A program made the translations under genes and the position numbers. Under the pieces are notes generated by a model. The model was not told the DNA's origin. It did not search any database and saw only the letters and a list, made by a program, of their open reading frames with translations. DNA of 21,637 nucleotides, from the NCBI GenBank assembly GCA_003024985.2, contig PXIH01S0003596.1; one strand, given 5' to 3'. Of the stretch, positions 3,020 to 21,222 are shown one piece after another (within the stretch, counting starts at the first letter, position 1; each line of letters begins with the position of its first letter). Source of the DNA: Euperipatoides rowelli. Taxonomy: Eukaryota > Onychophora > Udeonychophora > Euonychophora > Peripatopsidae.

Positions 3020-4554
3020 TGATTAAGCTTGACTTGGATAAGAAAAAAAAACTTCCTTTTCAATCTTTGCTGCTTTTTTTCCCTCCTGATCGCCTGCTTT
3101 AAAAGAAAGGTGCGTGCAAGAGTGAAGTCAACTAAAATTTGTGATTTTAATCATTACTGACAATCACTATTATAGCTATTTCTTTCATGAACATGAGTAG
3201 TATTTTATAGTAACCAATAAGCAACTGAAAATTTCCTTTGATTTTTTAATGTGGGTTAATTAATTTTAAGTTAAATAACGACTGTTAACCATTTTCACAA
3301 AATCTTCTAAATCCTAAACTGGATTACACACCTTGCCAAATTGCAAACCAGTTTTACATCTTGGAAATCTGTCCCAACTTCGATTTTTTCAACAGTTTTT
3401 GCCATCTTGTGCATTCTTGAAGTTTACAATGATTTATTGGATATACAGTAGTGGGCTTTAATGTTTCATGTGTCAAAAAAAATTCCAAACCCAACCCTGC
3501 TCATACCAAATAAAGTCATACATTTCATTGCTTACCAAAATATTCATACATGCCCACTGCCCAGTGCCAACTTGATGAGTAAGGAATCAAAAATGAAATG
3601 TTAATCTAAAAAAACTCAGCCCAATCTGCCAACTAAAACATGATATTACCAACTTTTCAGGTATTTTCCAACATTTGGAGTGGGGCCGGTAGGCTCCTCC
3701 CTTCGTCCCCCCCCTCCCCTTTAGCTATGGCCCTGAATGTATATACTGAATAATTTACTGCATATATTATATACTATATGCTTAAAATATAAAATTTGTA
3801 GCATACATTGTTGTCATAATAGCGGTTGGCTACCAATACTCTTCCCCAATAACACACACATAAAACACTATAAAAATGTCTTTTTTTTTTATAAAAAAAA
3901 ATCTAAGAAATTTAATTTAGAGTTAGAATCAGCCACAGTATAGTCATTTTATAAAGCGGGACAGTAGCACTGTATTTAAACAGTCAATCATGCCCCTATT
4001 TAGAATGGCTTTCCAATTTAACGTGCCATTTTAGTTCTTTTAAAATTAAATATTAATGTATGGTTTATTACTAATTTCTACTATAATATGTTCAATTGTT
4101 AAATTCATTGCTTTGAGAAAAATAATTGTAATAAGCTTTCACCACTTTTCAGTTATTAAAACCAAATATACCCAATACTGAAGGTAATCTTTATAAAATT
4201 TATATTGTAATATCAGTTACCATAGTCTATATTATTATTATTTATTGATTAATTTTGAGATTTTTTTTTTGAGGTGATAGTAGCTTTTTTTTTAAAAAAA
4301 ATATACTGTCTCCATGAGTGGCAAAGGTTATTCAGATAATTGCAGAAGCTTAGGAAACTACCAAACTTTTTGTAAATTCTAGAATGCCTAAATTATTAAG
4401 TTTCCTTTGTTGCTGGTGTAAAAATATTTAACATTTTCATTGGATGATGCGGCACATTTATTATAATGGTGATTGGTCATTCAAATTACACAATGCTGTG
4501 TGAATTAGGAACTTTCATCCACCTAGCAAAATAATGGCCTAATATTTGTTCAGT
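3020..4554. other. no recognisable gene; C-rich tract
   Basis: This is AT-rich non-coding DNA. The only notable composition is a pyrimidine tract (C and T only) of about 30 bases near 3691-3723, flanked by GGGGCCGG and TAGCTATGGCCC, which resembles the end of a dispersed repeat. Long T/A runs occur at 3883-3900 and 4260-4305. No credible open frame was found. Confidence 0.5.
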
Positions 4555-4850
4555 CAGTAGCATAGCTTAATGAATAACCGTCTATCAGTAAACAAGATCC
4601 TAGACCATCATTACTACTATCTGTTTGAATAATCAACTCTTTGTTATGGTCATAGCACTTCAAAATAGGCGCATGCATTAAATGATTTTTTAAACTAGTG
4701 ACAGTATCCGAATGTATCTGTTCCCATGTCCAAATAACATTTTTTTTAACAAATTGCGTAGTGTTACAAGTTCGGAATAAATTTGCCCAAAAAATTCACC
4801 ATACCCAACAAACCTTGCAGCTCTGTTTTGTTGGTAGGCTCATCCAAGTC
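4555..4850 (-). pseudogene. Gypsy RT connection and RNase H fragment
   Basis: After the RT core, a +1-shifted frame reads SPDKESVQAILDLDEPTNKT followed by an ELQGLLGMVNFLGKFIPNL block. This is the typical Gypsy segment in which the next codon positions of RT lead into RNase H. After a further break, the RNase H start is visible as IIQTDSSNDGLGSCLL, with the conserved D-x-S-x-x-G-x-G pattern, preceded by LMHAPILKCYD. Homology is lost soon after SYATD near 4560, which defines the truncation point. At least two frame breaks are visible. Confidence 0.85.
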
Positions 4851-5480
4851 TAAAATTGCTTGCACACTTTCCTTGTCAGGAGATATTCCTTTTCTGGAAA
4901 AGACTCTGAATGTATCTTCTTTGAGTTAAACCTGATATTAAAATCCTTTGCTCTTTGTATTAGTCTGCTGAGAATTTCATCACGCTCTTCTAAAGTATTT
5001 GCACTGATGATTATATCGTCAAAGTATAATGCGACTCCCACAATATCTCCAAAAGTTTGTGTCATAATTTTATGAAATATTTCAGGCGCAGATGACAGTC
5101 CAAAAGGCATCCTTTTAAACCTAAATCTCCAAAATGGAGTGTGAAAAGTGCACAAACGGCTGCTTTCATCATCTAATTCCAACTGAAAAAATCCATCATT
5201 GAGATCCAGTACCGTATAATAGTTTTTTATTGGCCAACCCAGGGGTAAGTTCATCCATAGATGGTATCTGAAAATGTTCTCTTTTAATAACAAGATTATG
5301 TCTCTGTTTAGATCCAAAGGAAATTAAAGTACCATCGACTTTTTCAACAATTGTCAGGTTATGAACCCAGTCTGTTGGTTCGTTGAATTTTTTTCAATAA
5401 AACCACTGCATTCGTACCTCTCCAAAGTATCTTTTAGTCTGTTTTAATGACTCAGCAACCCTATATGCTGGTTTTTCAGT
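4850..5480 (-). pseudogene. Gypsy reverse transcriptase core
   Basis: A 155-codon open stretch (4850-5317) carries RT motif A (TVLDLNDGFFQLELD), the TFHTPFWRFRFKRMPFGLSS block (TF-TPFGRYRF-R-PFGL-SAPE in the family) and motif C as ALYFDD, with both catalytic Asp residues. The N-terminal RT block lies just upstream in other frames: NEPTDWVHNLTIVEKVDGT at about 5330-5390, then IKREHFQIPSMDEL at about 5240-5285. The core is intact while the flanks are shifted. YFDD replaces the more usual YLDD/YIDD, a tolerated position. A small deletion near 4890 removes the usual YLG-x-x-x-S segment and shifts the frame. Confidence 0.9.
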
Positions 5481-5559
5481 TGAATAGCATCACTAACAAT
5501 TACTATTTTTTGTTTAATAGGAAACACCTCATTTTCATTTATAAAATCTGTTACACTAT

Positions 5560-5804
5560 TATATATTTTAGTAACAGTTTTTTTCCACTTTTCTAATTCT
5601 TTTAACAAAATTTAACTTTTCACAAGCATCATAATCCAATATAGGATTATCGCACACATCTGCTAACGTAAACTCAAGTTTGGCCACACTGCCATTTTTA
5701 GTAAAACTATCCAAGCCACTACTCCCCTATGTTTAATAGTAGCCTCTCCATACAGTATTGGTTATACAGGTGTATGTTTAACAGGGTAATTATAGTTTTT
5801 ATTC
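5560..5804 (-). pseudogene. Gypsy protease, C-terminal part
   Basis: Minus-strand codons on this side of the nested insertion read YPVKHTPV near the insertion, then a KVEFTLADV-like strand and NPILDYDACEKLN. The last corresponds to the ILG-x-x-x-C-x-x-L turn that closes the Gypsy aspartic protease, with the usual Gly replaced by Asp. It is degraded and shifted relative to the DTG half, which now lies 1.6 kb away at 7414-7505. Confidence 0.7.
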
Positions 5805-5808
5805 ATAT

Positions 5809-6372
5809 TATGATGAGCCTATAGTTATATATTATAAATTGTTCCCTTGGTTCATGTGCTCTCTGGTTACATTGTGTTTACATATTTTTGTCATGGCTTC
5901 GATAAACATTGATCAAAGTCATGGCAACATGGCTTAATTAGCCATGTTTATGTAAACACTGCGTAAGCAGGGCATGTGCTTTCGAGTGCATGAATCAAGG
6001 CAAAATTATTCATTTGGCAAATTTAAATATGCATGTACTATTTAGTATTTTAGTGCATTAAAAGCTTGCTTAACTGTCATTCTCTGAGGGTCGTTCTGTC
6101 TGACCCAACGAGACTTTCCTGCTAGACCTGTTGGTATTGTTGGGTCGGAGTGAGCGACCCGAGGTGTAATATCCGGCTTCCTGTGTTACCACGGCCGTGT
6201 AATAAGAAAATAACTGGAGCCTCTTTATTTTGTCAGCCTAAGTTGGTTCATTATAGTAATCCCTATGTTGGAGTTTATTTACCAAACAAATGATTTATAT
6301 TTATCAAGTTTGCCTCCTGTTTACTGCTTGCAATGTAATGAGCGTATTCAAAGCTAGAATATGTTCATTATA
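5809..6372 (+). repeat. 5' LTR of the nested element
   Basis: 564 bases. By eye it differs from its partner at roughly 29 sites (about 5%), about three quarters of them transitions, plus a few indels. A TATTTTAGTGCATTAAAAG stretch near 6047-6065 is TATA-like. At 6088-6160 two nested stems (GGGTCG/CGACCC and GACCCAAC/GTTGGGTC) could fold the presumed R region. A copy of the LTR terminus, GTTCATTATAGT, also occurs internally near 6247-6258. Confidence 0.88.
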
Positions 6373-6800
6373 GTTGACTCTTGCCGACGGAGTTTTTTTT
6401 CCAGCGCTTAAAGACTTTGTTATTAAATTAAATCATTGCAGTACTCCGGATTCATACTGTACATCGAGGGAAGATTGAAAACAGCGCCACTAATTGTAAA
6501 GCCAAATTTGAAATGGACACTCCCACAATCCTGAGGAAATATCAATCATGGAGTTGTACATAGGACTTTTAACAGTGCAAATATTGTAAACTTTTGCTCG
6601 AAATTGAAATGGAACTTTAAAAGAAAGAAAAACCGGTAATGATTTTTTTTTTTTAAAAAAAAGAGAGAAATGAATTTATAGACTTTAAAGAAAATAACCG
6701 ATAGCGGACAAATAGAACTGTGATAGACAATTATATTTTTGAAGTAATTGTTCTCTAAACAAAAAAAGAAAATATGTTCTGTACAATTTTTTTTCCCTGT
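6373..6800 (+). other. internal domain of the nested element, non-coding
   Basis: This region follows the 5' LTR with GTTGACTCTTGCCGACGGAG and holds no significant open frame. No TGG-initiated PBS sits at the LTR junction, so priming by a normal tRNA 3' end is not evident. It may use an internal tRNA fragment or another primer, or the site may have decayed. The rest is A/T-rich filler. Confidence 0.6.
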
Positions 6801-6812
6801 GAGGGGGAGGAG
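6801..6812 (+). promoter_or_regulatory. polypurine tract
   Basis: Twelve purines (GAGGGGGAGGAG) lie immediately before the first base of the 3' LTR, preceded by a T-rich box. This is the plus-strand primer site of LTR retroelements. It fixes both the orientation and the LTR start as TATGATGA. Confidence 0.85.
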
Positions 6813-7413
6813 TATGATGAACCTATAAGTTATATATTATAAATTGTTCCCTTGGTAGCCGATTGATCTCTGGTTACATGTGCTCGGTAGCCGATTGATC
6901 TCTGGTTACATTGTGTTTACATATTTTTGTCATGGCTTCGATAAACGTTGATCGAAGTTATGGCAACGTGGCTTAATTAGCCACGTTTATGTAAACACTG
7001 TGTAAGCAGGGCATGTGTTTTCGAGTGCATGAATCAAGGCAAAATTATTCATTCGGCAAATTTAAATATGCATGTACTATATTTAGTATTTAAGTATATT
7101 AAAAGCTAGCTTAACTGTCATTCTCTGAAGGTCGTTCTGTCCGACCCAACAACACTTTCCAGCTAGACCTGTTGGTATTGTTGGTCAGAGTGAGCGACCC
7201 GAGGTGTTATGTCCGGCTTCCTGTGTTACTACGGCCNTGTAAGAAGAAAATAACTGAAGCCTCTCTATTTTGTCAGCCTAAGTTGGTTCATTATAGTAAT
7301 CTCTATGTTGGAGTTTATTTACCAAATAAAATGATTTATATTTATCAAGTTTGCCTCCTGTTTCCTGCTTGCAATGTAATGAGCGTATTCAAAGCTAGAA
7401 TACGTTCATTATA
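6813..7413 (+). repeat. 3' LTR of the nested element
   Basis: 601 bases, longer than the 5' LTR because of an extra copy of a roughly 26-base segment (GGTAGCCGATTGATC..., at about 6855-6910) that is tandem here and reduced in the 5' LTR. AAATAAAATG near 7324-7333 could be the polyadenylation signal. One base is N (7237). Confidence 0.88.
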
Positions 7414-7505
7414 ATATCAAGAAACACATGGTATGGCAAAATATTAGTCTCGGCACCAGTATCTAGTGTGAATCTAATGTTTTTATCACATTCTTAGATA
7501 TTCAA
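7414..7505 (-). pseudogene. Gypsy protease, N-terminal active-site half
   Basis: The minus strand reads IRFTLDTGAETNILPYHVFL, the active-site strand of a retroviral-type aspartic protease. The catalytic D-T-G codons are at 7455-7463. The frame stops exactly where the nested LTR element begins, and the protease resumes at 5804 beyond it. Aspartic proteases of this type mature Gag-Pol and work as dimers. This copy is split and dead. Confidence 0.85.
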
Positions 7506-7589
7506 ACCAATAGTTATTTTTAATTTTATTTACATGCGACATATGAATTATAAAAGATTCAATATCATCAACGTCCTCAGTTACTACAG

Positions 7590-8389
7590 CTCTAGTTTTC
7601 CTTACCCAATTTTTTGAACCAGCATTCATTTTAATTTTATTTTTAAATAACCTTCAGCAAAATGGTTAGGTTTTTTACATAGATTACAATTTTTTCCAAA
7701 TACAGGACATTGCAACTTTGAGTGGGATCGGCCACCTTTTTTGCACTTAAAAACTTCAACATTTTTAGGATTATTATTTTGCAATTCATAGTTTTTTAAA
7801 CAATTTGTCTCTTTTTAATTTTATTTATAGATAAGGATGCATCTATTTTAACCTCACCTTGTAAAACTTTAGTCTGTCGATTAGAAATTACAGCCGCTTG
7901 ACAGAATTCCATTGCCTTTTGTAATGTTAAGTCCGAAACCTGTAGCAATCTCTCTTGTAAAGCCTCATCATTTATACCTATTATGATCTCTAAGCATCAA
8001 ATCTGGATCACTAAATCCACAAGTTTTTATCAATTTTTTAATAACTGTTAGAAAATGATCAAAAGGCTCACCTTGCTCGCAATTCCTATGATAAAACACA
8101 AATCAATCGTAAACAATATTCCTTCATGGACAACAATACAACTCAAAGGCTTCAATTATCTTAGATAAATCATTGGCATTATCTTCTTCAAGACCAAACA
8201 CTAGAAATATATCATGAGCTTCGTAACCGATCAGATCTAAAAGCATCCAACTTTTTTTTCCGACGACGTTGCCCCATATCCTGTAGCCAGCATGGAAACA
8301 TCAAATCGTTTCATAAATTTCCTAAAGTTGTCTTCCAGATTTCATGAGAGCATTAATGGTTCTGGTGGTCTAAAGCCACCCATCGCCAT
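7590..8389 (-). pseudogene. Gypsy gag with zinc knuckle
   Basis: On the minus strand a start ATG at 8389 (second in-frame ATG at 8383) opens MAMGGFRPPEPLML, a common Mag-like Gag N-terminus. After frame breaks the capsid-like text continues: MKRFDVSMLATGYGA, LIGYEAHDIF, EGEPFDHF-type and LQERLLQVSDLTLQKAMEFC segments. Near 7650-7745 is the nucleocapsid region, a basic stretch followed by CPVFGKNCNLCKKPNHFAEG (C-x2-C-x4-H pattern preceded by C-P-x-x-G-K-x). Several stops and shifts are present. Gag would coat the element RNA in a virus-like particle. Its position directly after a PBS confirms that it is the first gene of the element. Confidence 0.85.
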
Positions 8390-12828: not shown

Positions 12829-12992
12829 TGTTCTAGAAAGTTTGAAACAGTTCTAGAAAGTTCCAAGAAGTTCTAAAAGTTCTGGAAATTTCAAAATAAT
12901 TCTAGAAAGTTCCAGAAAGTTTCAGAAACTTATAAAGTAGAAAGTTCTGGAAAGTTCGAAAAAGTTCCAAGTTTCAAAAATTTTTAGAAAGT
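12829..12992. repeat. 10-bp minisatellite of heat-shock-element type
   Basis: About 15 degenerate copies of a 10-base unit, TTCTAGAAAG, lie head to tail. The unit equals two inverted nGAAn pentamers, so many stretches are contiguous heat-shock elements with correct spacing, for example TTCTAGAAAGTTCCAGAA at 12900-12917. Variants TTCCAAGAAG, TTCTGGAAAG and TTCGAAAAAG keep the TTC/GAA positions more often than the spacer bases. No heat-shock gene or other open frame follows within the window. It may be a simple minisatellite that happens to match HSEs. Confidence 0.85.
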
Positions 12993-15258: not shown

Positions 15259-15594
15259 CTATTCAGGCATCTTATCAATGACAGTTATAACTTCTTTTAG
15301 TTGGGTTAAAGCATAAAGTTTTAGGTCATCAATTACGAGTGTTAAATTAGCAATTTTATCATCACCAAGTTTCGGTGCCATTTCATTTAGTTTGGAATAA
15401 ACATTTGGAGCACAAATATCGGTTATATTCATGTATTTAGATAGCGTTAGTTTCAAACCTTCTTTGTCGAATTTATCAGACTCCTCAGTCGAATTTGATT
15501 TGTTCAGAGTTTGATTTTTATCATCTGCACTCATAACATTTGATATCAATAGTACCCAAACTGAGATACTTATGCATAAAGCGAGGGAAACCAT
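15259..15594 (-). CDS. small secreted glycoprotein, orphan
   Basis: A 111-codon frame from ATG at 15594 to TAG at 15259. Residues 1-23 form a clear signal peptide (MVSLALCISISVWVLLISNV, then SA, cleavage likely before DD at 24-25). The mature chain of about 88 residues is acidic and lysine-rich, has only one Cys (C61) and carries five N-glycosylation sequons (N27, N31, N34, N56, N83). Residues 78-108 look helical and amphipathic. The two bases before the ATG follow a strong acceptor (pyrimidine run then ACAG, ending 15597), so at least one non-coding or short upstream exon lies at higher coordinates and was not found. A polyadenylation signal follows the stop. I recognise no family. A lone Cys argues against disulphide-knotted peptide classes. 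This is the best host-gene candidate in the window. Confidence 0.62.
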   Translation of the reverse strand: MVSLALCISISVWVLLISNVMSADDKNQTLNKSNSTEESDKFDKEGLKLTLSKYMNITDICAPNVYSKLNEMAPKLGDDKIANLTLVIDDLKLYALTQLKEVITVIDKMPE

Positions 15595-16522: not shown

Positions 16523-16735
16523 TTACAATAATTAAAATAAAATAAAAATATTATAGTTCTGAAAAGTAGACTATAAAAACAATGTTGACAAAAATAATAA
16601 AGCTTCTATTATTATATTTGTTACAATATAAAATACAAGAATAAAGTTCATTTTCTTTACTTTTCTCAAAGTAGGAAATCTATGGGCATCAATCTCTCAA
16701 CAACGTTACAAAAATAAAGCTATGCCGCAAAAGTG
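16523..16735. repeat. diverged direct repeat, copy 1
   Basis: It starts TTACAATAATTAAAATAAAA and runs about 210 bases. Copy 2 (17341) matches it almost perfectly for the first 37 bases and then with increasing divergence (shared ACAATATAAA, CATTTTCTT-like and ATCAATCTCTC-like blocks). The pair flanks the fold-back at 17117-17234. Its nature (old duplication, solo terminal repeats, or two copies of a short element) is not settled. Confidence 0.65.
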
Positions 16736-17340: not shown

Positions 17341-17555
17341 TTACAATAATTAAAATAAAATAAAAATATTATAGTTCAGAAAAGTAGGCTATAAAAATGA
17401 ATTTGGCAAAAGGAACACAGTTTCTATGAAGTATATTTTCCACAATATAAATTAAAATAAAAAAGTGCATTTTTCTTGTTTTTCCCACAGTGGGAATAAT
17501 CTAAACATTGATCTCTCACCCAGGTTGAATAAAAAAAAGCCATGAAAGTAGCTTA
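17341..17555. repeat. diverged direct repeat, copy 2
   Basis: Second copy of the repeat at 16523, 818 bases further on, in the same orientation. It begins directly after a single N (17340). The divergence of the later part rules out a simple assembly duplication. Confidence 0.65.
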
Positions 17556-17822
17556 CTTACTAATGAATTTTATAAAAAAATTATATCAGTCCTTTTAAGC
17601 TCTGTTTTAATGAGTTATCTTTTGGAGGAATTGATGGAGAAGCCATGAAAGGTGCCAATCTGTTGTACATTTGCATTATTTTGAAGAAACAATGTACTAA
17701 CTCAATACCAGAAGTAGGGCACTTTAGGCCTATAGCCAGGGGTGTCACTGTGTAGCCAATTCGCCAAATTTGACTATTTCCTTAATATTCATGGGTGAAT
17801 GTCAGCAATCTCCATTTTATGA
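17556..17822. other. no recognisable gene
   Basis: Non-coding. It includes GGCCTATAGCCAGGGGTGTC near 17727-17746, a motif reminiscent of repeat termini but not assignable. Confidence 0.4.
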
Positions 17823-17870
17823 TATTGGCGATAGGAAGAGCATTTATTGAAAAAGATCGCCAGCTATTAA
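17823..17870. repeat. 48-bp direct repeat, copy 1
   Basis: TATTGGCGATAGGAAGAGCA onwards for 48 bases, repeated at 18156 with one visible mismatch. A TGGCGAT/ATCGCCA inverted pair within the unit can form a 7-bp stem. Confidence 0.85.
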
Positions 17871-17964: not shown

Positions 17965-18155
17965 TAGTCTGTTGTTGTCGTCATATTTGTATTTGTATTT
18001 GTAATGTCAAGAATTAAAATCTTGATAATCTCTGCCTTTTTTACTTTTATTTCTCGGATTGAATTGTTTTCATAGTCAAAATCTACTATCTAAGATTTTT
18101 ATCCACAAAACACTTTTTATCTTCTTTAATCTAGCCAAGAATCATTGAACTATAG

Positions 18156-18203
18156 TATTGGCGACAGGAAGAGCATTTATTGAAAAAGATCGCCAGCTAT
18201 TAA
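18156..18203. repeat. 48-bp direct repeat, copy 2
   Basis: Matches 17823-17870 with one substitution (GATAGG to GACAGG), which turns the internal stem from 7 to 6 bp. The pair spans 381 bases. Confidence 0.85.
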
Positions 18204-18951: not shown

Positions 18952-21222
18952 TGATGCACTTGGCTAGTAAATCGATCTTGTTCTCCAGGTCCAGACCTTA
19001 TTAGTTTTGGTGTTTATAACATTTTTAACCATTTATTTAATAGAGTATTGTATGTTTTATTTAATGAGTTAATCAATGTTAGTTATTTGAACTGTCAATT
19101 GTTTGAGTCATATTTGGTGTTACTTATAAAAAGGAATATTGCACCATCACAGTTCGTTGAATTGAAGTCTCCCAGGCCCATTTGCATTCAAAACTTCAAT
19201 TCTAAGTTGTTTGCCAAAATTTTGAACAGTAAGCTTTCTTTTCATTTGCCCAGGACTTTATCTCCATTTCAATTTGCCTTCAAAAACTTGAATATTCATA
19301 TACCCATATTTATACTACAGGAAGCTATTTTTGAAATAAACAAGCAAAAGCTGGAGAAGGCAGTAATCATATTTGTTGATGTATCCAAGGCTTTCGAATT
19401 TGTTAATCTTAAGTTTTTATTACAGGTAATCATCAATAGTTTTGGTAATTCTAATCTTGCAAGAGGGCTGATCAACTATATATCTAACAAATCTGTGAGT
19501 ATTAAATTTCAGAATAGACTATATTACACCCTTGCTTTGAAAAGAGGTTTGACTCAGGGTTCTCCCCTGAGTTCAAATCTCTTCGCTGTGTACACTAACA
19601 ATTTAGTTATACAGCTGAACAATCTCAACTTGGGTATCCATTTACCAAACTTTGGTGCTGCTATGTCCCGTATTGCGTACTTAGATGATATAACCATCAT
19701 CTTGGAAGACATGGACTATATTCATCTAGTGTTCAACACCATTAGAAATTTTTTGGTTGTGACAGGCTCCCAGTTCAATAATGAAAAAACTTTTGTGTGG
19801 AGACCTTATTTGAATCGAATGATGGAAATTTTAATCAAGCATTTCCATCTAAATTTATGGGCATCTCCTTTCCTTTTGATGGTATTGTTACTAGAAATAA
19901 GATACGATTAGAACTTTTAGATATTTTCGATGGCATACAGGACCGATTACAGTCTAAATACTTATCCTTGCTAACTAGAGTAAGAATTATTAACTGATAT
20001 ATGTTCAGCCATATCTATTACTTTGGATATCACTTTAAGTTTACCAAAAGATTTATTGACAGGGTCTATTCAATTGTAAATAAGATTTTGTGGAATAAGA
20101 AGCTTATCCCCATATCCAAATTTAAGGTGATGCTCCAAATTTCTAAAGGTGGTCTCGGTTTACACAACTTAGAGATGATTCTGACTATAATTATGCTTTT
20201 CTGGTGTTCATAAGGTTAAAACAGTCTCTCCTGGTGTTATGGAGGTAGATCCAACAGACACTCCTCCGCCGGACTTAATACAGTCTCACCCCTTTTATTC
20301 TATAGCTGCAAGTTTTATTGACATAGTAGACACTTTGGATCAGGAGATCACTTCTAAGATTCAATACAAGCTATATTACAACATTATAAGTGATGTCACT
20401 TTGGTGAGCAATGAAGCAAGGCTTATTCGGTTCTTTACTAGGATTATCGTTACATGAACTATCCCCCTAATATTTTCTATTTTATTTTTAAGACCCTTCA
20501 TCAGGCGCATATGACTAAAGTTTTAATGATTTCTAAATATGGGCTTAATATAGATGACCAATGTGTCTTTTGCAATTTACCAGAGGACGATAGTCATATC
20601 TTTTCTGGGTGCAATTATTTTTTTTTTCATTTAGAAATAAGTTATGGTATTACACAGGGTTTCAGTTAAATAACTCTAATGTTATGAGTTTGGGGCTTTT
20701 CTTATTGCCAAATAGTGAAGTTTGTGTTATTCTTTTTTTATGGCCTATTCCTATTATGGAAAACCAGGAATGCAGCAGTTTTCAACGGTTGTAGGCTAAA
20801 AATTTGGCCTTATTTTGCATCAGAGCTCAGAATTTTGTATAACAATGATAATTTAGATTTGGAGGCTGAGATAGTACAGAGGAAATGTTGGAATAACAGC
20901 TGTAAGTTGTTTTTTGATAATATAATTTTATACAATGGATTATAATTACTTATTGAGCAAAGTAGTCTAAGTAAATTTCCCAATCTTTATTTTCATAAAA
21001 AAAAGAAAAAGGAAAAAAGTGGATCAATGTGGTAGCCAAATTTCTTTTTTGTTGAATTAATTGTGTTGTATGAACTATGCTGTTTAAAGTGTTTTGTATA
21101 ATTATTTCTCAATTGATGTAATTTAGTCTTCTTGTTAATAAACATTTTTAAGGGAGAAAATCCCCCCACCCCCCAAAAATTCAGACTGTTTGATTAATAA
21201 AAAATAAAAAAAAAAAAAAAAT
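18952..21222 (+). mobile_element. 5'-truncated L1/Tx1-like LINE with poly(A) tail
   Basis: An open frame from 18952 to 19911 starts in mid-protein (no endonuclease) with SCSPGPDLISFGVY, the PGPDG block that opens the L1 RT. Then come RPICIQNFNSKLFAKIL (RT2), FVDVSKAFEFVN (motif A), RGLTQGSPLSSNLFA (motif B) and AYLDD (motif C, codons at 19678-19689), where L1 usually has FADD. A frameshift near 19790-19850 moves the thumb (FMGISFPFDG) to another frame, followed by an in-frame TGA at 19998, KGGLGLHNL near 20150, two more shifts and a C-terminal zinc knuckle CVFCNLPEDDSHIFSGC (C-x2-C-x7-H-x4-C) near 20560-20615. The coding part ends at about 20945. A 3' UTR and an A-rich tail follow at 21204-21222. 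No TSD was found. Dead copy. Confidence 0.88.

Follow-up and report, generated by a model that had tools for sequence, protein, structure and literature searches.

A decayed TRIM-like LTR element inside a Gypsy protease of Euperipatoides rowelli and the candidate tRNA-Asp primer sites of its relatives

A gene-free LTR element in the protease of an older Gypsy copy

The window, by which we mean the whole stretch of 21,637 nucleotides that was analysed (contig PXIH01S0003596.1 of the onychophoran Euperipatoides rowelli, GenBank assembly GCA_003024985.2), contains a complete LTR element of 1605 bp at 5809-7413, composed of two LTRs that begin and end with TATGATGA / TCATTATA, a short interior, a purine tract and a flanking duplication of ATAT. 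The element sits in the protease of a decayed Gypsy copy on the opposite strand. The features are as follows, left and right of the insertion being those of the Gypsy strand for the host parts:

4553-5808, - strand: host Gypsy, right of the insertion; remaining protease, linker block, reverse transcriptase (PF00078), then broken frames
5805-5808: target site duplication ATAT, left, from the sequence
5809-6372, + strand: 5' LTR, 564 bp, aligned to the 3' LTR; homologues in the genome
6022-6028, + strand: TTTAAAT, a possible TATA box by its motif, with putative function
6373-6812, + strand: interior, 440 bp, no coding
6801-6812, + strand: purine tract GAGGGGGAGGAG, abutting the 3' LTR; similar tracts in relatives
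6813-7413, + strand: 3' LTR, 601 bp, with an AATAAA at 7325 that is absent from the 5' LTR
7414-7417: target site duplication ATAT, right, from the sequence
7414-8102, - strand: host Gypsy, part left of the insertion, with gag-like frames, zinc knuckles and the beginning of the protease

Over 562 aligned bases the two LTRs show 34 differences (6.05%; K2P 0.064; 24 transitions and 10 transversions), and their alignment has 39 gapped columns, chiefly one 34-bp indel. An earlier reading made from the sequence only had estimated a divergence of about 5% and called the insertion not recent; the second part stands, while the measured value is 6.05% plus the indel. The longest stop-to-stop frame lying fully within the element is 96 aa long and antisense, a 99-aa frame extends one base beyond the element end, and the longest frame of the interior has no Pfam match at E values up to 1. 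What had been proposed is confirmed: a two-LTR, gene-free element of 1605 bp with a 440-bp interior, a purine tract and ATAT at its borders.

The host Gypsy retains zinc knuckles (7629-7814, - strand), a DTG protease motif (7414-7490, - strand) and a reverse transcriptase (4853-5323, - strand) that matches PF00078 at 5.4e-19. The spacing between the protease motif and the conserved block that follows it was measured between residues aligned in each of two Gypsy paralogues, the element and one ATAT being subtracted: 110 bp in the window compares with 109 bp in the paralogue on contig C148 (contigs of the assembly are given as C numbers), and between other aligned residues 164 bp compares with 165 bp in that on C560. 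The agreement with both paralogues indicates that nothing else was gained or lost at the insertion, to within one base, and so the suggested clean split of the protease holds at that resolution; the protease part immediately right of the insertion has no match in either C148 or C560.

ATAT precedes seven of the 13 LTR starts whose left flank was inspected (window, C603, C2071, C92, C1301, C3856 and C298), part of this being expected from the AT-richness of the surrounding DNA; the remaining left flanks read ATAG (C597, C736), GCGT (C3595), CTAT (C3840), GTAT (C1159) and ATGT (C1673). With both sides considered, the duplication is exact only in the window and matches at three of four bases in C3595, C736 and C1159; the flanks disagree in C2071 and C3840, and C603, with TATAT on either side, is ambiguous.

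A family of short copies

A search of the 100.9-Mb genome with the window LTR finds 32 places on 27 contigs; a nucleotide-level search with the interior recovers, apart from the query, just 63 bp at 81% in C597, which makes the interior nearly single-copy. Beyond the window, short LTR pairs occur in nine of 30 locus comparisons (11 + 14 + 3 + 2, with three contigs entered twice), namely in C597, C1711, C298, C2482, C3188, C685, C2053, C429 and C1673; the pairs are 0.6-1.6 kb apart, with no coding recognised in between, and C2348 is likely a tenth such locus. The second copy, in C597, has an interior of 377 bp and a truncated 3' LTR, and the third, in C1711, an interior of 458 bp and a 5' LTR cut down to its last 113 bp; the two interiors are alike at 73% over about 165 bp, up to the 3' LTR, and share sequence with the window at corresponding places. 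LTR-like pairs are spaced by about 1140 bp in C298, 998 bp in C2482 and 600-650 bp in C3188, the last so closely that an interior hardly fits.

The remaining pairs were reached by other routes. C685, found through the end of the C1711 interior, has repeats 89% alike and 1561 bp apart, and its LTR has no blastn match to that of the window. C2053, found through a pattern combining an LTR end with a tRNA-Asp complement, has repeats 85% alike and 1243 bp apart; a search with its LTR finds at least 44 places on 36 contigs, 40 of 51 candidates having been scored. C429 (LTRs 87.8% alike) and C1673 (85.7%), picked from these matches for showing pairs about 1 kb apart, each have a purine tract before the 3' LTR and a tRNA-Asp-like site. 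C1976, the sole match of its search, was rejected as a relative, its sequence context being unconvincing. In C365 (G000:C365:1168-4972, - strand) a C2053-type LTR is broken into pieces that match query 1-103 and 106-488 and are separated by about 3.3 kb, perhaps through a later insertion between them. The other LTR loci show no pair within the flank examined, which was only 1.5 kb at several of them, so that long copies could have escaped there.

The longest interior frames in 11 copies measure 43-104 aa; a Pfam scan of ten of them, all but that of C2348, gives no match at E values up to 1. Divergence within LTR pairs ranges from 6% (window, and C1711 over 113 bp) to 21% (C2482), which places the window copy among the younger ones. 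Since the interiors are mostly too diverged to align, the common descent of the three LTR groups is argued from signals, namely LTR ends, primer site and purine tract, rather than from overall similarity.

The short coding-free copies at nine other loci, together with the lack of coding in the window element, bear out its description as non-autonomous; of the many copies with the same short interior that had been anticipated, the genome search recovers the architecture, but the interior sequence only weakly. A partner supplying the proteins is then a logical need. A reverse transcriptase search with the host Gypsy gave 358 candidates, the best 150 of which, on 145 contigs, were scored; among 70 contigs with an LTR or primer-site match, only C921, the window's own, is in this scored set, where about two would be expected by chance. 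No gag-pol was found together with family LTRs or LTR ends among these best 150 of 358 candidates, where some flanks extended to only 1.5 kb, and no integrase was identified. C89 was considered as an autonomous partner and rejected: its joined stretch of 6.1 kb holds no LTR pair and no known domain recognised by eye.

These results bear on the alternative that the window element is a single copy of an autonomous LTR retrotransposon, with the same LTRs but part of its interior deleted. The near single-copy state of the window interior at the nucleotide level, and the variation of interior length and sequence among loci, speak for such a deletion; yet short LTR pairs recur at nine other loci, the C597 and C1711 interiors have sequence in common with the window at matching positions, and the best 150 of 358 reverse transcriptase candidates coincide with the family on the window's own contig alone, about two shared contigs being expected by chance. 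A lone deleted copy is therefore highly improbable, and the window element very probably belongs, as a decayed copy, to a TRIM-like family of non-autonomous LTR retrotransposons.

Hairpins in the LTRs

Four regions of the window LTRs fold into hairpins:

5868-5966, + strand: U3 hairpin region; fold z -7.1, 87.7% of cells paired over 28 copies
6088-6160, + strand: R hairpin region; fold z -5.3, as against -1.9 for the reverse strand; across 25 copies 87.3% of cells pair
6334-6372, + strand: hairpin of 16 bp that terminates the 5' LTR at its 3' end; its fold is equalled by 0 of 300 shuffles
7375-7413, + strand: the same 16-bp hairpin at the end of the 3' LTR; 0 of 300 shuffles

The U3 and R hairpins could be inherited palindromes without a role in RNA structure. 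Consistent with this, covariation within LTR group A (28 copies for U3, 25 for R) is not clearly above column shuffles, with the exception of U3 cells changed on both sides, a level reached by 12 of 500 shuffles; RNAalifold finds only 6 and 8 consensus pairs for the two hairpins in this group, and the R hairpin of the 3' LTR has a z of only -2.2. Covariation was discarded as proof of these hairpins within group A. Against inert palindromes, the LTR of C685, for which blastn shows no similarity to the window LTR, forms hairpins in comparable positions (z -3.6 and -2.2), and the hairpins at LTR ends stay paired despite different sequences among groups. We regard the palindrome explanation as rather unlikely; the lack of a clear excess of covariation fits copies that only decay after insertion, and a function of the hairpins stays putative.

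The LTR 3' end behaves differently. Of the 24 ends examined, drawn from 20 loci, 20 have a terminal or near-terminal stem, mostly of 13-17 bp, and 20, a slightly different set, are matched in folding by at most 15 of 300 mononucleotide shuffles; the stem is absent from C1159, C2632, C89 and C685. Pairing is kept with differing sequence across the LTR groups, four or more pair types occurring at positions 7, 11, 12 and 13 from the end, where the pairs are those of each end's own best fold and C2053, C1006, C2348, C1473 and C89 come from a pattern that fixes the last five LTR bases. Separately, the interior of C685 (L055) contains, at about 1005-1150, two tandem hairpins with like loops and, by eye, different stems, perhaps a packaging signal.

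The primer site and the tRNA-Asp complement

Two segments of the window interior are candidate complements of tRNA-Asp:

6375-6390, + strand: degenerate putative primer-binding site for tRNA-Asp, by comparison with relatives; Asp is not the best tRNA for this copy alone
6456-6469, + strand: block complementary to the tRNA-Asp 5' end, from tRNA complement scoring against shuffles

Ungapped primer matching against 35 tRNAs was uninformative, many of these looking bacterial and the host tRNA-Asp not being among them. One tRNA-Asp reference was taken from C46, a tRNA-Asp-like gene without CCA; the base preceding CCA was set to G after the model of C1006 and C2348, where C46 itself reads A, and this choice may favour tRNA-Asp. 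The second, C1006, is itself part of a relative and so not independent.

After the LTR end stand TGGCTTCCCGAC in C1711, TGGCTCAACCGACG in C3188, TGACTTCCC in C429 and TGGCTCC in C1673. Ranked among 37 sequences, tRNA-Asp comes first singly for C597, C1711 and C3188; for the window copy taken singly another tRNA outscores it, and tRNA-Phe leads for C2632. Alignment of the window to the whole tRNA-Asp gives a score equalled in 446 of 1000 shuffles. Summed over window, C597 and C1711, the primer site scores 27 for tRNA-Asp versus 19 for the next of the 37, a value reached by 0 of 2000 shuffled tRNA ends. The second block, which complements the tRNA 5' end, occupies interior positions 84-97 in the window, 74-92 in C597 and 81-98 in C1711. 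Asp is the top tRNA in each, 96, 31 and 149 of 2000 shuffles respectively scoring as high; the summed score of 31 versus 21 is equalled by 1 of 2000. Because these copies are relatives of one another, neither set of scores amounts to independent tests. Across the 11 sites tested the second block is clear in C2053 and at the first site of C1473, weak in window, C597 and C1711, and absent from C3188, C2632, C89, the second site of C1473, C2348 and C1976. At the level of the family, the primer site fits tRNA-Asp as judged by these comparisons; on weaker evidence, the window's group appears to keep both ends of a tRNA-Asp complement.

The pattern TTATA, three bases and the tRNA-Asp complement has five matches in the genome and none with a reversed control; LTR-end hairpin and primer site thus provide handles for finding relatives beyond the reach of similarity search, as the pattern search showed. 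The complement, CCA included, covers positions 1-69 of tRNA-Asp in C2053 and 1-67 in C1473; C1006 complements the whole tRNA, C2348 has 24 nt, and C89 an ordinary length. The C1006 locus (L099) consists of an LTR end, the complete tRNA-Asp complement and then an inverted LTR, forming a palindrome; it looks like a fold-back product of reverse transcription, in which the tRNA end AGAA could have paired with TTCT of the LTR.

Such full stretches could instead be tRNA genes or tRNA-derived repeats that lie beside LTRs by chance. ARAGORN calls a tRNA-Asp in C1006, and Ty3-like elements insert near tRNA genes, both of which count for this explanation. Ty1 and Ty3 have bipartite primer sites whose genomic copy is reportedly not derived from the tRNA (PMC5371799), an argument against read-through if the partner is Ty3-like. 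However, in C2053, C1473, C1006 and C2348 the stretch starts with TGG, which complements the CCA tail missing from the gene-like C46, and lies at a constant 2-3 nt from the LTR end; it runs antisense to the LTR, as required of a primer site, and the LTRs beside it differ in sequence. Chance proximity to tRNA genes is therefore unlikely.

The reading that we put forward, tentatively and with slightly less than even confidence, is that a coding-free LTR lineage of an animal retains a copy of its whole primer tRNA: tRNA-Asp would have been copied past the usual 18-nt stop and the extended complement inherited, and the window's group would keep two blocks about one tRNA-length apart, beside a self-pairing LTR end. 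Among the papers listed by a literature search, no title or abstract beginning describes a whole-tRNA primer site in an LTR element. Ty1 and Ty3 resemble the present family in that pairing with the primer tRNA extends beyond the 3'-end site, but they use tRNAiMet, and the second segment of Ty3 lies in U3 rather than one tRNA-length downstream as here (PMC5371799).

In the corresponding mechanism, the LTR would drive RNA synthesis, and the proteins of a Ty3/Gypsy-type partner would package and copy the RNA; minus-strand copying would start at the tRNA-Asp site 2-3 nt past the LTR and plus-strand copying at the purine tract; and the partner integrase would insert the product into an A/T-rich target that it cuts with a 4-bp stagger, in this case the protease of an older Gypsy. 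In the relatives with a near-whole or whole tRNA-Asp complement, reverse transcriptase would have copied the primer past its usual stop, and the copy would have been kept. If this is true, a natural near-complete or complete tRNA imprint at a primer site is a record of primer read-through, and it would make testable the idea that long pairing with the tRNA helps a protein-less element to compete for the reverse transcriptase of its partner. The whole-tRNA imprint in the relatives and the self-paired LTR end are the features most worth specialist attention.

Comparison with known short LTR elements

To our knowledge, few TRIM-like families are on record from animals, and most of these have no known partner. 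The window element shows the TRIM architecture of an LTR pair, a short coding-free interior, a purine tract and, at family level, a primer site, and the nine other short LTR-pair loci supply the several copies expected of a TRIM. The size limits given for TRIMs, under 1000 bp in total with repeats of 100-250 bp (PMC6934838), are exceeded by its 1605 bp and its repeats of 564 and 601 bp; hence 'TRIM-like' rather than TRIM in the strict sense.

PbTRIM of ants is likewise coding-free, with two LTRs, a primer site, a purine tract and 4-bp duplications, ATAT being the commonest (PMC3532108); it differs in being 480-781 bp long, with LTRs of 152-184 bp and a tRNA-Leu site, as against 1605 bp, 564/601 bp and tRNA-Asp. 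The Helenus TRIMs are also non-autonomous, have 4-bp duplications in animals and are tied to Gypsy in general by their primer sites (PMC10886601). The ATAT target had been taken to suggest a partner of the 17.6/297 or Errantivirus-like type; with ATAT duplications common in PbTRIM, and 4-bp duplications found in animal Helenus too, that suggestion is not supported, and ATAT gives no pointer to 17.6/297.

Helenus elements, at most 1263 bp long, have within their LTR a pol III promoter that resembles a tRNA and includes boxes A and B (PMC10886601), whereas the tRNA-like stretch of the present family is antisense and at the primer site; membership in Helenus was rejected, with no tRNA (ARAGORN) in the window LTR and no box A or B in a motif scan of the 5' LTR. 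The TRIMs of bivalves are similarly short, coding-free LTR elements; their interior contains inverted repeats and pieces resembling tRNA but reportedly no clear primer site, unlike the present family (PMC6934838). The window LTRs are longer than those of the animal TRIMs compared. Retrozymes, as reported, resemble the window element in being small and non-autonomous with structured LTRs (PMC4918200); membership was rejected, since Rfam matches up to E 5 over 5700-7500 include no hammerhead and the 5' LTR has no core motif.

Other features of the window and the assembly

A second reverse transcriptase frame of 287 aa (19048-19911, + strand; PF00078 at 8.4e-22) lies away from the Gypsy and looks LINE-like by eye. 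A 111-aa frame (15259-15594, - strand) has no Pfam match and, by eye, a start resembling a signal peptide. Direct repeats occur at 16523-16609 and 17341-17427 (86% alike) and at 17818-17870 and 18151-18203 (94% alike). Elsewhere in the assembly, C432, C425 and C85 of G000 carry bacterial-looking tRNA clusters, which suggests symbiont or contaminant contigs. At 12830-12992 of the window lies an array of 10-bp units around TTCTAGAA/GTTC, which we take to resemble heat-shock elements.
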